Positions 6,642-20,690 of a stretch of 20,690 nucleotides of DNA are shown piece by piece. The notes under the pieces were generated by a model. It was not told where the DNA came from, searched no databases, and worked only from the letters and a program-made list of their open reading frames with translations. Source of the stretch: a virus; the IMG/VR virus record IMGVR_UViG_3300009170_000035, positions 1 to 20,690 of that record; one strand, given 5' to 3'. Both the position numbers and the translations under genes were made by a program. How positions within the stretch are numbered: the stretch's first letter is position 1; each line of letters opens with the position of its first letter.

Positions 6642-6671
6642 TGCGGGAAAATGGGTATCTTATATGATAAG
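6642..6671 (+). promoter_or_regulatory. 30-bp promoter-like repeat, copy 1
   Basis: Thirty bases identical to copy 2 at 7476-7505, while the flanks differ. It directly follows a terminator and precedes a small gene with a good ribosome binding site, so it is most likely a promoter. Two readings are possible. As a host sigma-70 type promoter, TTGCGG (6641-6646) and TATGAT (6663-6668) have a 16-base spacer. As a phage RNA polymerase promoter, strict conservation over a block of about this length is what T7-like promoters show. The 3' part also forms an interrupted palindrome, CTTAT-ATG-ATAAG. Confidence 0.75.
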
Positions 6672-7475: not shown

Positions 7476-7505
7476 TGCGGGAAAATGGGTATCTTATATG
7501 ATAAG
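7476..7505 (+). promoter_or_regulatory. 30-bp promoter-like repeat, copy 2
   Basis: Identical over 30 bases to copy 1 (6642-6671). It starts two bases after a stop codon and is followed, after a C-rich leader, by a small gene with GGAGG. The -35-like hexamer here would be CTGCGG instead of TTGCGG, which weakens the sigma-70 reading a little and leaves the phage RNA polymerase reading open. Confidence 0.75.
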
Positions 7506-8634: not shown

Positions 8635-8667
8635 ACCACTACCCCTAAAAAGGTAGTGGTTTCTTTT
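8635..8667 (+). terminator. Intrinsic terminator before the RNA polymerase unit
   Basis: Perfect nine-base-pair stem ACCACTACC (8635-8643) with GGTAGTGGT (8652-8660), an eight-base A-rich loop, and the T-rich tail TTCTTTT. It separates the small-gene block from the RNA polymerase operon. A further run of eleven T follows at 8685-8695. Confidence 0.85.
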
Positions 8668-8699
8668 GAAAGTCTTAGGCCTTATTTTTTTTTTTCGGT

Positions 8700-8734
8700 G
8701 TCGTAAGTAATCCCATTTACGACGCAAGTCGTAA
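8700..8734 (+). promoter_or_regulatory. Mutually exclusive hairpins upstream of the RNA polymerase genes
   Basis: Three segments can pair in two ways. GTCGTAA (8700-8706, A) and GTCGTAA (8728-8734, A') are both exact complements of TTACGAC (8717-8723, B). A with B gives a seven-pair stem with a ten-base loop. B with A' gives a seven-pair stem closed by the GNRA tetraloop GCAA. The second stem ends one base before the GGGG of the ribosome binding site of the gene at 8746. This arrangement resembles a translational switch, attenuator or RNA-processing site. No ligand domain is recognised. Confidence 0.6.
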
Positions 8735-8745
8735 GGGGTTAGGTG

Positions 8746-8886
8746 ATGCAAGAAATGAAGGATGAGCTATTATTATTCTTTTTGTTTCTATTAGGAAGAC
8801 TAATATTTGGCGCATTCTATCTCATTGCTATATTCTTGTGTTTCCTAACGATCGGTCCTATCCTTCGTTGGTTAATAGGATTTTAA
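8746..8886 (+). CDS. 46-residue membrane protein coupled to RNA polymerase
   Basis: A small protein (MQEMKDELLLFFLFLLGRLI and onward) that is almost wholly hydrophobic after residue 7; it contains one long or two short membrane helices broken by GR (about residues 17-18) and by TIGP (about 35-38), with a basic RWLIGF end. The ATG at 8746 follows AAGGGG. Its stop overlaps the start of the RNA polymerase gene (TAATG at 8884-8888), so polymerase translation is probably coupled to it. Function unknown. It could be only a leader that carries ribosomes across the upstream hairpins, or a true membrane-active protein. Confidence 0.65.
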   Translation: MQEMKDELLLFFLFLLGRLIFGAFYLIAIFLCFLTIGPILRWLIGF

Positions 8887-11123
8887 TGAGAAATCAAATT
8901 ATTGAATCTCTCGTGTCCCGCATAAAAACAGAAATTCCAGAAAGAAGTACTTTGAAGTATCTTCAGAAACTAGATGTCGAAGATTATATCGACTCTGTTA
9001 TTTCTGTTTTATATCTATACACTCGCGTAAAAAGAGGAGCACATCGTAATAGTGTTTATCTCACTGAAGTTATTTGTGCAATTGGTCATAACATTCGTAA
9101 TAAATATAAGCTTAAAAGAGATTCTGCATTAGCTGCTAAGACTGGCGCATTTATCCTTTATACATTTGAGCTTGCGTGTATTCTTCAAGTCGTATTAGGG
9201 CAAGGTGCTAAAGGGCATGCTGCTTATATCATTCAGGTGTTAGATGATGATGAGCTTAGTAAATTGTGGGATAATCTTGAACCATCAAAAATTGAAAAAC
9301 TTCCATCAGAAGTTCCATATTCACCCTGGACAACAACTAAGCATGCAACTGGAATGCTGCTTGTAAAGACGGGTAATAAGGATGTACTTGATAAAATTAG
9401 CCTTGAAACACATCCCATCATTTTTGATTGTGTCAATAAAGCACAAACTGTAGGGTGGACTATTAATGAATATATTTACAACTTACATCTCTGGGCGCTT
9501 CGAAACAAAACGGAGGCATTCTCAGATATATGGGAATTACACAACCCTGAAGCTCGTGCTACCAAGATCCGAGAAGCAAAAGCTGTTGGAGGAATTGCTA
9601 AAAGATTCCTCGGAAAACAATTCTTTCACTTGTACTATTTCGATTTTAGAGGACGGAAGTATCCGGCCACCGCTTATCTCCATGAGCAAGGTTCAGACCT
9701 TGCCAGAGGGCTATTGCTCCGTAGAGATAAGAAGGCTATCGGGAAAGCAGGATTCTTCTGGCTATGTGTGTCAGTTGCCTCTAACTGGGCAGGGGACGCA
9801 GGACGTGAAGATGGGGCGAAAACCGACAAGATACCCCTTAAAGATCGATTTGAATGGACTATCGATAATGAAGAAATCATTATTTCCTATGCGGAAAACC
9901 CCAAAGTCAACCAAGGGTGGATGAAAGCTGATAAGCCTTGGCAGTTCCTTGCGGCATGTCATGAACTAATGCAAGTTAGAATTCATCAAGCTGCTGTTAA
10001 TGATCTTGAAGATTATTCTTACGAATCTAACCTTGAAGTTTATATCGATGGCTCCAATAATGGTTCTCAACATCTCTCTGCTTTAACTAAAGATGAGCTT
10101 ACGGCGCCTCATGTGAATCTCGTACCACTAGATTTACCAGGTGATCTTTATAAGTATGTAAGCGATCATGTTTGGGTAAGACTAAATAAAGTTTTAAGTG
10201 AGATGACTAAGAAGGAAATTGCTGATTGTGAAAAATTGATTGATGAGCTTATAGATCTTAAAAAGCAGATTAATGATTCAGAGCCTAAAAGTGAACGTCG
10301 TAGAGAGCTTATTTCAAAGATACAAAGCTTCAAAGATCGTAATAAAGAGCTAATGAATATCGCTGCTCCAGTCTATTGGGCTAGAATTAAAGACTTCAAG
10401 CAGAGACGTAAGATCGTGAAACGCAACGTTATGACACTTCCTTATGGAGGAACCGCTTATGGCCTTGGTGAGCAGCAGATCGATGATGCGCGAAAGCATG
10501 GTATTGAATTACTCCTACACATGGAACATCGATGGGGAGCCTACCTTGGACGTGAAGTCTTTGCAGATTGTAGAGTGTCTCTCCGCAGACCTATGCAATT
10601 GCTCTCTATATTTGAAAATGCTGGAAAGCGTGCTGAAAGCGAAGGTAGATTCCTTTCCTGGACAGTCCCCATTACAAATTTCCCTGTCGTTCAAAATTAC
10701 ACAGAAGGAAAGGTAAAGAAAATATGGGTGCAGTATGGACCGACAGATGGTGAAAAGACTAGCACTGGATATTACGATAATACTTTGCAGCTTGCAATTT
10801 GCTTTATTGAAGATGTTAAACCATCTAAAGGAAAGCAGTCCCAAGGTGCATCTCCTAATGCTATCCACAGTCTTGATGCTGCTCATCTCGCTCTTACTGT
10901 CCATAAGGCTTCTTTTCCAGTAAGCACTGTACATGATTCTTTCGGATGTCTTCTGGCTGATATGCCTGAATTATACACACTAATCAGAAAGACTTTCGTT
11001 GAGCTTTATGAAGCAGACCCTCTAACAAGTATTATGAAAGATATTAATGGTGATATCAGTGGTATTGAATTCGGTACCTTAGATATTAAACTCATCTTAA
11101 ATTCGGAGTACTGCTTTGCATGA
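8886..11123 (+). CDS. T7-type single-subunit DNA-directed RNA polymerase
   Basis: Transcribes phage genes from phage-specific promoters. Predicted 745 residues, shorter than T7 gp1 (883), mostly in the N-terminal promoter-binding part. All core motifs of the family are visible: DFRGRKYPA (T7 DWRGRVY), IDGSNNGSQHLSA with catalytic Asp388 (T7 Asp537), RKIVKRNVMTLPYGG with Arg508, Lys512 and Tyr520 (T7 Arg627, Lys631, Tyr639), and VHDSFG with Asp684 (T7 Asp812). The C-terminus YCFA resembles the T7 FAFA foot. Between Asp388 and Lys512 there are 124 residues against 94 in T7; the extra part is a charged helical insert (about residues 440-490). The ATG at 8886 is chosen because it overlaps the previous stop; an in-frame GTG at 8838 would sit within the small membrane gene. 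It ends in an ATGA overlap with the next gene. Confidence 0.96.
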   Translation: MRNQIIESLVSRIKTEIPERSTLKYLQKLDVEDYIDSVISVLYLYTRVKRGAHRNSVYLTEVICAIGHNIRNKYKLKRDSALAAKTGAFILYTFELACILQVVLGQGAKGHAAYIIQVLDDDELSKLWDNLEPSKIEKLPSEVPYSPWTTTKHATGMLLVKTGNKDVLDKISLETHPIIFDCVNKAQTVGWTINEYIYNLHLWALRNKTEAFSDIWELHNPEARATKIREAKAVGGIAKRFLGKQFFHLYYFDFRGRKYPATAYLHEQGSDLARGLLLRRDKKAIGKAGFFWLCVSVASNWAGDAGREDGAKTDKIPLKDRFEWTIDNEEIIISYAENPKVNQGWMKADKPWQFLAACHELMQVRIHQAAVNDLEDYSYESNLEVYIDGSNNGSQHLSALTKDELTAPHVNLVPLDLPGDLYKYVSDHVWVRLNKVLSEMTKKEIADCEKLIDELIDLKKQINDSEPKSERRRELISKIQSFKDRNKELMNIAAPVYWARIKDFKQRRKIVKRNVMTLPYGGTAYGLGEQQIDDARKHGIELLLHMEHRWGAYLGREVFADCRVSLRRPMQLLSIFENAGKRAESEGRFLSWTVPITNFPVVQNYTEGKVKKIWVQYGPTDGEKTSTGYYDNTLQLAICFIEDVKPSKGKQSQGASPNAIHSLDAAHLALTVHKASFPVSTVHDSFGCLLADMPELYTLIRKTFVELYEADPLTSIMKDINGDISGIEFGTLDIKLILNSEYCFA

Positions 11124-15453: not shown

Positions 15454-16276
15454 CGTACTCGCATATATGGCTTGCGAGTCAAGATGGAAAAAGAAAGCTA
15501 AGGACAATATTTCAATTATATCTCTTGATGAGAACGGTGATCGCATTCCTCTTCAATTTACAAAAGAAGAAGATCGATACTATCTAGAAGAGTCTTGGGA
15601 AAACTTTAAGGAAATGCTTCAAGCGCTATTAGATGAGGTCTTTTGTGAAGAGTTTTTAATGGCTGTTAAAGGTGAGAATAATTATAGAAATGCAATTCTT
15701 CCTACTTACAAGATGAATCGGCATAAAGATCCTAACAAACAAAACATCTTTGTGCCCACGTTAAGAAAGCTTGCAGTAGCTGAAGATCTTGCCATAGCAG
15801 CACATGGAATGGAAGCTGACGATCTAATAAGGATTTGGGCTGAAGAATGTAGAGCCTATGGAATAGACTATATAATTTGCTCTATTGATAAAGACTTGCG
15901 TTGTATTCCTGGAAATCACTTCTTAATGCGTGATAAGAAGATTATTACTATTAATGAGAAATCCGCAATACGACATTATTATTGCCAGCTACTCAAAGGT
16001 GATCCTACGGACAATGTTCTTGGAGTACCACGCGTTGGTGAGATCAAGGCAGATAGGATACTTACCGCTTGTAGCGATGAGGAAGAATATCAAGAAGCTG
16101 TCGTAGAACAGTACATGATAGCTTATGGTGAAGGTTGGTTTGAACAACTACTTGTTAATGGTAGAATGATTCATCTCCTACGAAGCCATAGGGATTTCTT
16201 TGATCCAAAAGAATGGCCTGTTGTTAAAGAGTTAAGAAAGGAGATTCTTTTACCGGTTGAGAAAAATGAAATTTGA
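15431..16276 (+). CDS. T7 gp6-like 5'-3' exonuclease (FEN superfamily)
   Basis: Degrades DNA from 5' ends, removing RNA primers and, in T7, supplying nucleotides from host DNA. The 281 residues are close to T7 gp6 (300). Metal-binding acidic clusters of the flap-endonuclease family are visible: IDGDVLAY (Asp6, Asp8), GMEADDLI (Glu128, Asp130, Asp131), CSIDKDLR (Asp153, Asp155) and GDPTDNVLGVPRVGE (Asp191, Asp194), the last leading into the helix-hairpin-helix that grips DNA. The start at 15431 has AAGGA nine bases upstream. The gene overlaps both neighbours, in keeping with one coupled replication operon. Nothing essential is missing. Confidence 0.92.
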   Translation: MLAIIDGDVLAYMACESRWKKKAKDNISIISLDENGDRIPLQFTKEEDRYYLEESWENFKEMLQALLDEVFCEEFLMAVKGENNYRNAILPTYKMNRHKDPNKQNIFVPTLRKLAVAEDLAIAAHGMEADDLIRIWAEECRAYGIDYIICSIDKDLRCIPGNHFLMRDKKIITINEKSAIRHYYCQLLKGDPTDNVLGVPRVGEIKADRILTACSDEEEYQEAVVEQYMIAYGEGWFEQLLVNGRMIHLLRSHRDFFDPKEWPVVKELRKEILLPVEKNEI

Positions 16277-16784
16277 AGGTGAATTACCAAGTGTTCCTAA
16301 TAATGTTGTAAAGTTCAGTAAGAAGAAGTTTGATAATGGACATTGGCACTTTTGTGAACAGATGGGTGGTAAGTACGCAGAGAAGAATTGTCCAGTAGGT
16401 TTTATATATGTCATCAGAGATAATTACTTAGAACGTTTTTATTTGGGTAAAAAGACATTCTTCGGAAATGGTATTAGTAACAAAGGTAAAGAGTCTAATT
16501 GGAGAACTTACTTCTCATCTTCGAAAGCACTTGCGGAAATGTTTAAAGAGAGACCAATGGAAGAATTTGATTTTATCTGCTTAGAGCAATATAAGACAAA
16601 GGGAACTCTATCTTATTCTGAAACTTGGTCTCTCTGTTTTGTTGAAGCACCTACGAATACGACTTGGTATAATACACTTATAGAGAAGGTCTCTTGGAAT
16701 GTCAAAGAGCCTATTACGCAAAGACATAAAGATAGGTTGGCTGACGTAATCAAAATGAAGAAATTCGAGGAACAACATGCGTAA
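16266..16784 (+). CDS. GIY-YIG-like endonuclease
   Basis: A 172-residue nuclease candidate. I read GFIYVI (45-50) and YLGKK (59-63) as the GIY and YIG elements, ESNWRTYFSSSK (76-87) with Arg80 as the basic catalytic region, and Glu119 (LSYSETW) as the metal-binding Glu; a WYNTLI segment follows. The order matches small phage GIY-YIG proteins related to the T4 Seg endonucleases. The N-terminal 40 residues are unrecognised. In T7 the resolvase gene 3 lies among the replication genes; here this protein might fill that role, or be a homing endonuclease, which is common for Seg-like proteins. The ATG at 16266 lies inside the exonuclease end. A TTG three codons earlier is a less likely start. Confidence 0.75.
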   Translation: MKFEGELPSVPNNVVKFSKKKFDNGHWHFCEQMGGKYAEKNCPVGFIYVIRDNYLERFYLGKKTFFGNGISNKGKESNWRTYFSSSKALAEMFKERPMEEFDFICLEQYKTKGTLSYSETWSLCFVEAPTNTTWYNTLIEKVSWNVKEPITQRHKDRLADVIKMKKFEEQHA

Positions 16785-18798: not shown

Positions 18799-19094
18799 CA
18801 ACTATCAAAGAACTTGCTGGAGAAATGGGCTTATTTAACGATGAGAAGCCTATCGTACGTTATGTAGAATGGATAGAGCCCTGGCATTATCATGACATTT
18901 CCTCGCCACATCCTGCTGAAGTTTATATAAACAGGACTATTAGAGTTACAGTAGAAGATGCGATTAAAATGCAAAAGGCTAATGCAGCATTTGAGAATAG
19001 AAAAAATAACCGACATTTTACGTACAAGTCTGATGAAATGGCTTTGAATGATTTTGTTGTAACATGTTGGGGAAAAATAGTTGAGGATTATTAA
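18795..19094 (+). CDS. Hypothetical protein upstream of ribonucleotide reductase
   Basis: A 99-residue protein starting at ATG 18795 (ATGA overlap with the previous stop) and ending in TAATG with the reductase start. It has a short helix at the N-terminus, an aromatic and His-rich middle (VEWIEPWHYHDISSPHPAEV), a beta-like segment (INRTIRVTVEDAIKMQKANA) and a C-terminal part with a conserved-looking FVVTCWGKIVED end. There is no membrane segment. The Tyr/Trp/His content and the DAIK.Q helix resemble small phage proteins that sit beside nucleotide metabolism genes. Function unknown. Confidence 0.75.
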   Translation: MTTIKELAGEMGLFNDEKPIVRYVEWIEPWHYHDISSPHPAEVYINRTIRVTVEDAIKMQKANAAFENRKNNRHFTYKSDEMALNDFVVTCWGKIVEDY

Positions 19095-20690
19095 TGACGG
19101 AAACAACAACGCCTTGGTCGTCCGTAGGTTACTTAACGTACAAGCGGACGTACGCAAGAAAATTTGAAGGAGAAACAGGAGCAGATGCTCCAACTGAAGA
19201 ATTTCCAGATACTATTGAACGTGTATTAGGTGCATGTAAAGATCAATTGAAAGTTGGTTTCACTGAAGATGAAGAGGATCGTATTCGTGAATACATGCTC
19301 GCGCTTAAGTGTTCTGTTGCAGGAAGATTCTTATGGCAACTTGGCACAAAGACTGTAGACAGACTGGGCTTAGCTTCACTCCAGAATTGTGCTTTCACTG
19401 TAGTAGATCGACCCATACGCCCTTTCTGTTGGGCAATGGACATGCTGGCACTTGGATCCGGTGTGGGCTACAACATTCAGAAAGTACACGTAGACAAACT
19501 TCCAGTAGTGAGGGATTGGTTCAAAGCACCTACAAGAGTTAATCATGCTGGTGCAGATTTCATAATCCCAGATTCTAGAGAAGGTTGGGTTAAGTTTCTT
19601 GGCAAAACATTAAAGGCAGCATTTTTAAGTGAACGACAAGAGAACGGGACCTTTACCTTCTCTACCCAAGTTGTACGTGGAAAAGGGTCTCCCATCGGAG
19701 GCTTTGGCGGCGTGGCTTCAGGCCCTGAAGATCTTGTGTGGGGCATCGGAAAAATCTCTGAAGTCCTTGAACGACGACGTGGAAAGAAAATAAGGCCCAT
19801 TGATGCTTTAGACATCATGAATATTATTGGCAAAATTATTGTTGCCGGTAATGTCAGACGTTCAGCGCAGATAGCAATAGGTGATCCTGATGACATCGAA
19901 TATTTATTGGCTAAGAGATGGGATATTGGCAATATTCCCCCTTGGAGGGATATGTCCAATAATTCTGTTGCCTGCGACGATCTCCGTGATCTTCATGAAT
20001 ACTTCTGGCATGGATATGAGGGTAAAGGAGAACCTTATGGTCTCATTAACCTTCGCTTATCGCGTAAGGTTGGAAGACTTAATGAGACTGAGTACCCTGA
20101 TCCGGAAGTGATGGGTTACAATCCCTGTGCAGAGCAGTCGTTGGCTCCATATGAGACTTGTTGTCTTGCTGAAGTTTTTCTTCCCAATGTGGAATCTAAA
20201 GAAGAATTCCTAGATATCCTTGAATTGCTTTATAGGATTAATAAACATTCTTTGATTCTTCCTTCTCATCACCCTGAAACGGGTCAAATTGTTCATAAGA
20301 ACATGAGAATGGGAATTGGTCTTACTGGTATCTTACAAGCCTCTAAAGAGCAAAATTCTTGGTTAGCTGATGGCTATAAATATCTTCGTGATTTTGACGC
20401 GCGTTACTCTACTATGCACGGTTTCAATCGCTCTATCAAGCTTACGACCGTTAAACCATCTGGTACTTTAAGTCTGCTTCCAGGAGTAACACCTGGTATT
20501 CATCCTGCATATGCACAGTATATGTATAGGCGAATACGTATTGCTTCTGATCATAAGCTAGTTGCAGTTTGCCGTGAGCATGGTTACCCTGTTGAATATC
20601 AATTAAACATAGATGGTTCTGAAGATTACGGTACAGTTGTTGTTACGTTCCCGTTTGCATATCCTGAAGGGACACGTCTTGCAAAGGACA
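19094..20690 (+). CDS. Class II (adenosylcobalamin-dependent) ribonucleotide reductase, 3'-partial
   Basis: Reduces ribonucleotides to deoxyribonucleotides for phage DNA synthesis, without oxygen and without a separate radical-generating subunit. The first 532 residues are present; the frame is open at the right edge. Key residues of the monomeric RTPR/NrdJ type are seen: Cys99 in SLQNCAF (first redox Cys), NPCAEQSL with the thiyl-forming Cys345 and catalytic Glu347, ETCCLAE with Cys356 (second redox Cys), and the TVKPSGTLSLLPGVTPGIHP segment. The distance of 11 residues from Cys345 to Cys356 matches that of Lactobacillus leichmannii RTPR (408 to 419). RPFCWAMDMLALGSGVGY also fits. The enzyme needs vitamin B12 from the host. 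The ATG at 19094 overlaps the previous stop; no stronger start is seen. Confidence 0.93.
   Translation, partial: MTETTTPWSSVGYLTYKRTYARKFEGETGADAPTEEFPDTIERVLGACKDQLKVGFTEDEEDRIREYMLALKCSVAGRFLWQLGTKTVDRLGLASLQNCAFTVVDRPIRPFCWAMDMLALGSGVGYNIQKVHVDKLPVVRDWFKAPTRVNHAGADFIIPDSREGWVKFLGKTLKAAFLSERQENGTFTFSTQVVRGKGSPIGGFGGVASGPEDLVWGIGKISEVLERRRGKKIRPIDALDIMNIIGKIIVAGNVRRSAQIAIGDPDDIEYLLAKRWDIGNIPPWRDMSNNSVACDDLRDLHEYFWHGYEGKGEPYGLINLRLSRKVGRLNETEYPDPEVMGYNPCAEQSLAPYETCCLAEVFLPNVESKEEFLDILELLYRINKHSLILPSHHPETGQIVHKNMRMGIGLTGILQASKEQNSWLADGYKYLRDFDARYSTMHGFNRSIKLTTVKPSGTLSLLPGVTPGIHPAYAQYMYRRIRIASDHKLVAVCREHGYPVEYQLNIDGSEDYGTVVVTFPFAYPEGTRLAKD

Follow-up and report, generated by a model that had tools for sequence, protein, structure and literature searches.

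Does the leader of the RNA polymerase (RNAP) operon in this phage act as a switch that decides when the polymerase is made? The question arises from three short segments in the window (the whole 20,690-nt stretch of the virus record analysed here). GTCGTAA occurs at both 8700-8706 (A) and 8728-8734 (A'), and TTACGAC at 8717-8723 (B) is the exact reverse complement of both copies. These letters and positions, together with a GCAA loop at 8724-8727, agree throughout with an earlier reading made from the sequence only (hereafter the sequence-only reading), which had suggested a translational switch, a transcriptional attenuator or an RNase III site.

The operon and the two competing folds predicted for its leader

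All the features of the leader and operon described here lie on the plus strand. The upstream gene block ends in a terminator-like hairpin (8635-8660) found by a terminator scan, and similar hairpins lie 5' of the RNAP operon in many relatives. A T11 tract (8685-8695; U11 if transcribed) adjoins the leader on its 5' side. The leader had been placed directly before the RNA polymerase operon, which is correct for the operon and not for the polymerase: the operon opens with an ORF for a small hydrophobic (membrane) protein (8746-8887; 46 aa from a start at 8746 or 43 aa from a start at 8755). Its stop overlaps the start of the polymerase (TAATG), a single-subunit T7-type enzyme of 745 aa encoded at 8886-11123 (phrog_414, E = 2.6e-110; PF00940, E = 1.3e-65). 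The small ORF had no match in Pfam or PHROGs; in nearly all relatives the RNAP gene is directly preceded by one or, in some cases, two short hydrophobic ORFs of about 34-60 aa. A near-identity search among annotated phages gave no match to the window. Elsewhere in the window, 16257-16784 and 19094-20689 encode a GIY-YIG homing-endonuclease-like protein (SegE family) and a B12-dependent ribonucleotide reductase. The lysis region contains an identical 30-base repeat, TGCGGGAAAATGGGTATCTTATATGATAAG, at 6642-6671 and 7476-7505, which might serve the phage polymerase as a promoter or be another control site.

Two folds were predicted for the leader. In fold 1, arm A, extended beyond its core to 8698-8708, pairs with the likewise extended arm B (8715-8725) in a stem of 11 pairs (-13.6 kcal/mol), and the anti-Shine-Dalgarno (anti-SD) arm UAAUCCC (8708-8714), with its CCC, is held in the loop except for its first base. 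In fold 2, the same arm B pairs with A' under the GCAA tetraloop (GNRA type), and the helix runs across a 2-nt bulge into the pairing of UAAUCCC with GGGGUUA (8735-8741), forming a 14-pair hairpin from 8708 to 8741. Six outer pairs (8698-8703 with 8744-8749) are added over the ribosome site, and fold 2 is the minimum-energy fold of the leader (-21.7 kcal/mol). The folds predicted are thus mutually exclusive, as the sequence-only reading held, and one of them lies over the SD or start; both stems are longer than the seven pairs it had counted, and the GGGG (8735-8738) that it had placed one base past the stem lies inside the second one. By its letters, GTG-TCG-TAA at 8698-8706 also forms a start-stop mini-ORF, beginning 2 bases past the T tract and overlapping arm A; we considered this and set it aside, the letters being the sole evidence.

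The order of folding was predicted from prefixes of growing length. A:B was the sole fold to about 8737, B:A' then replaced it, and the second fold was favoured once about 8740 had been made. For RNAs with 3' ends from 8745 to 8840, the folding model gave the second fold almost exclusively. With at least 160 downstream bases, the two folds were predicted to be comparable and the site mostly paired either way; this long-range prediction is unstable, because the balance between the folds swings with the 3' end. For the passage from fold 1 to fold 2 at 37 °C, findpath gave a barrier of about 12 kcal/mol, which is an upper bound in this model.

Two start codons are available. ATG 8746 is preceded by AAGG/GGGG, with GGGGUUA as its candidate SD, while ATG 8755 has the better one (AGGTGAT at 8741-8747, 7/7 bases, spacing 7). 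The protein read from ATG 8755 starts MKDEL, to be compared with MDEL in the relative L003. Fold 2 was predicted to bury GGGG and AUG 8746 and to leave AGGUGAU about 70% paired, all three being more open in fold 1; in both folds, most of the predicted pairing of AUG 8755 was high and involved sequence 3' of it. As our leading and still tentative reading, we propose that the small-membrane-protein and RNAP operon is controlled at translation by this leader, a hairpin that would occlude the ribosome-binding site (RBS) and pass through a transient open form.

Poly-T tracts and leaders in the relatives

RNAP-guided scans yielded 66 distinct upstream regions. Searches for homologues of the leader, using an exact 39-mer and a degenerate pattern tolerating stem changes, returned only an identical contig, and the protein-guided scans of viral and genome contigs found relatives and no variants of the leader. 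In the sister phage L003 (83% RNAP identity; tree support 100/97), a T13 tract is followed directly by GGAGCATGTAGAATG; its leader is 12 nt long and has no hairpin. From these comparisons, the hairpin appears to be specific to this virus and lacking in its nearest relative.

The poly-T tract is, by sequence comparison, a more conserved oddity than the hairpin. Tracts of 9-30 T on the coding strand were found upstream of RNAP in 36 of the 66 distinct relatives (L003, L006, L009, L016, L018, L065, L068, L071, L191-L202 and others), even in a phage of 62% GC. There they separate the terminator-like hairpin from the operon's first gene, and each genome has a few further tracts elsewhere. Among the 15 long records examined, ten genomes each contained T9 runs at a few sites, always confined to a single strand of the genome concerned. 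The RNAP sites, and most of the other sites read, showed a terminator hairpin, often TTA or similar, the poly-T and a gene start, in this order; in L192 and L201 the start codon follows the T tract immediately. The cultured phage DSS3_VP1 (Naomviridae) has a hairpin and CCCTTAATTTTTTTC just 5' of its RNAP, and its tract is shorter. Such tracts may be U-rich ribosome or S1 sites, of the kind described in PMC2176067, or else promoter/initiator elements or parts of terminators.

In an RNAP tree of 65 phages, long leaders (about 40-105 nt) were present in 21, this phage included, and the other 44 had a short leader or no recognised tract. Long leaders showed no phylogenetic clustering on this tree (at least 15 changes were forced, no better than with shuffled labels); leaders of both lengths occur dispersed across it, and such leaders are therefore gained and lost fast. 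The clade of six that includes this phage, L028 and L147 also holds the short-leader phages L003, L004 and L012. In another family of long leaders (L085, L159, L160, L179 and L181), the hairpin GATGCCTTCGGGCATC, located 3' of the T tract and 5' of the small ORF, is invariant while its flanks vary. In the match tables, the RNAP coding span is about 2.75-3.3 kb rather than 2.24 kb in L028, L033, L036, L037, L039, L040, L043 and L045, which suggests an inserted intron or intein.

As a group, the long leaders were structured (Fisher p = 7e-8; 1e-6 excluding this locus), while SD burial (p = 0.25) and refolding (p = 0.75) were not significant group-wide among them. A competing-stem score of -7.5 kcal/mol or lower was reached by 3 of the 21 long leaders (this leader, -8.2; L018, -14.7; L028, -7.8) vs. 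3 of 332 noncoding control windows (Fisher p = 0.003). In L147, the order A, anti-SD, B, tetraloop, A' and SD is repeated in unrelated sequence (refolding p = 0.007). The suggestion of a translational switch thus has on its side exclusive folds at the ribosome-binding site, their departure from chance and the same layout in L147; SD burial and refolding, not being group-wide, and the sister phage L003, which does without the hairpin, count against it.

Static hairpin, chance and other explanations

A simpler account, which we consider rather unlikely and the most serious of the alternatives, is that of a static hairpin that sequesters the RBS or protects the 5' end. Only the 20-pair fold 2 would then count, setting a low translation rate or guarding the mRNA; A would contribute nothing beyond its share of the outer stem, with A:B a by-product of the repeat. 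The near-exclusive presence of fold 2 in RNAs ending at 8745-8840 agrees with this account, and so does the group of long leaders, which has excess structure and no excess of refolding. A single SD-covering stem also exists elsewhere: in the homologous leaders of L009 and L214, a stem with the SD GGAG in its 3' arm is kept via two double compensatory changes and one change from G-U to G-C, and no rival stem is present. This comparison is a hand alignment of two sequences and the evidence is modest; in L149, which groups with L009 (92/91), a comparable stem ends at its own SD. The compensatory changes, like the structured state of the long leaders, also count in favour of the translational control hairpin proposed above. 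However, a static hairpin needs neither an exact 7-base copy of A nor its 11-pair extension with B. The copy of A recurs in L147, and competing stems remained enriched among the long leaders when this locus was left out (p = 0.028), both of which speak for the control hairpin with a transient open form.

It is improbable that the structure is neutral, i.e. the product of a recently inserted, fast-changing leader under no selection, even though conservation is absent and long leaders come and go with no phylogenetic pattern. A 7-mer triple of the form A, reverse complement of A, A within 40 nt occurred once in the 20,690-nt window, vs. a mean of 0.02 per dinucleotide-shuffled window. The minimum free energy of the leader had a z of -4.65 vs. 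shuffles, and a competing-stem score as strong as that of the leader was obtained in none of 200 shuffles. When the A/B/A' core was kept constant and only its surroundings were shuffled, the real flanks still folded better than the shuffled ones (p = 0.034) and burial of GGGG was above expectation (p = 0.011). Because these shuffle p-values concern a feature picked by eye, the tests excluding this locus matter more; rarity vs. genome controls, the group-wide excess of structure and the compensatory changes in another lineage also argue against a neutral origin. The A/B/A' pairing is real and not due to chance.

T7 early mRNA carries RNase III sites, which are irregular long hairpins near the polymerase gene. 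The leader resembles them: this phage has a T7-type RNAP, and the hairpin of roughly 20 pairs, made irregular by a bulge and an internal loop, lies near the polymerase gene and might be cut to free the 5' end of the operon. We regard such processing as very unlikely. Unlike the T7 sites, this hairpin holds the ribosome site, which cutting would damage, and it is not conserved, being absent in L003, the nearest relative. A literature search turned up no paper dealing directly with RNase III and the RNAP leaders of phages.

An equally small chance is given to a DNA operator, in which TTACGAC-GCAA-GTCGTAA would be an 18-bp palindrome bound by a regulator, with an extra half-site. The three GTCGTAA copies in 35 bp are what such an operator would look like. 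In the rest of the window, however, GTCGTAA occurs only as two isolated 7-mers, and a genome-wide repeated operator was rejected on this count; the pairing of UAAUCCC with GGGGUUA, in which there are a bulge and a G-U pair, beats shuffled flanks, which points to RNA.

Transcriptional attenuation was excluded because neither stem has a U tract behind it (AAGTCG follows 8725 and GGTGATG follows 8741), and the terminator scan gave only the separate hairpin at 8635-8660. The remark in the sequence-only reading that no named riboswitch is known to have this shape held up against the Rfam covariance models, none of which matched the leader; the best hit was sub-threshold and on the other strand (22.3 bits vs. 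a gathering score of 48).

Folding order and polymerase synthesis

We return to the RBS-occluding hairpin with a transient open form, which would work as follows if the RNA starts at or before 8698 and if the folds form in the cell and affect translation. In the nascent RNA, A would pair with B first, holding the anti-SD CCC in the loop, with the RNA from 8726 onwards left free. After synthesis of A' and the SD region, B would change partner and the hairpin at 8708-8741 would form; the freed 5' half of A would then close on 8744-8749, so that GGGG, most of AGGUGAU and AUG 8746 would be buried. Ribosome loading would be good on young transcripts and poor later, with ribosomes perhaps held ready at the upstream U11 tract. 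The TAATG overlap would couple the small ORF to the RNAP, and polymerase output would be limited or timed because of this coupling to an occluded small ORF. On this model, production of the small membrane protein and of the polymerase is probably slowed or timed by the hairpin; RBS occlusion would be the firmer half of the explanation, and selection on the early A:B fold the weaker half.

Similar arrangements have been described in other phages. For the MS2 maturation-gene leader, PMC6582335 (citing Poot et al. 1997) summarises how RNA folding is delayed: an early small hairpin postpones the formation of a stable fold that impedes ribosome binding. Going by that summary, an early small hairpin near the 5' side would precede the ribosome-hindering structure in both systems; MS2 is an RNA phage, whereas the present leader belongs to a DNA-phage transcript of unrelated sequence and its folding order comes from prefix-fold prediction. 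The lambda cIII leader, according to PMC4166951 (citing Altuvia et al. 1989), adopts two mutually exclusive conformations, one of which occludes the ribosome site. It is closer in that it is a DNA-phage mRNA with two exclusive folds, one covering the ribosome site; its balance is described as set by temperature, whereas the folds of the present leader would be ordered by transcription, with no signal known. U-rich or S1 standby sites upstream of the SD, as outlined in PMC2176067 (citing Boni 1991 and Zhang & Deutscher 1992), recall the U11 tract just 5' of the structured ribosome site. Unlike the sites outlined there, the tract follows a terminator hairpin and has a length of 9-30 in many relatives, and its U form presumes transcription. 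The best reading by analogy is that the leader would be an RBS-occluding hairpin with a transient open form, of the MS2 maturation or lambda cIII type.

A broader proposal, which we think doubtful, is that a poly-U tract with a fast-evolving competing-hairpin leader is a translational timer of the RNAP operon in this group of phages with T7-type polymerases. It would have been gained and lost repeatedly, in unrelated sequences built on the same logic of A, anti-SD, B, A' and SD (this phage and L147, with variants in L028, L018 and L006). The poly-T tract itself, for which an obvious explanation is lacking, may merit more attention than the hairpin. How phages time or limit the synthesis of their own polymerase has been little explored outside T7, and a throttle on polymerase translation that depends on folding order, present in one phage but not in its sister, would be a compact natural experiment.
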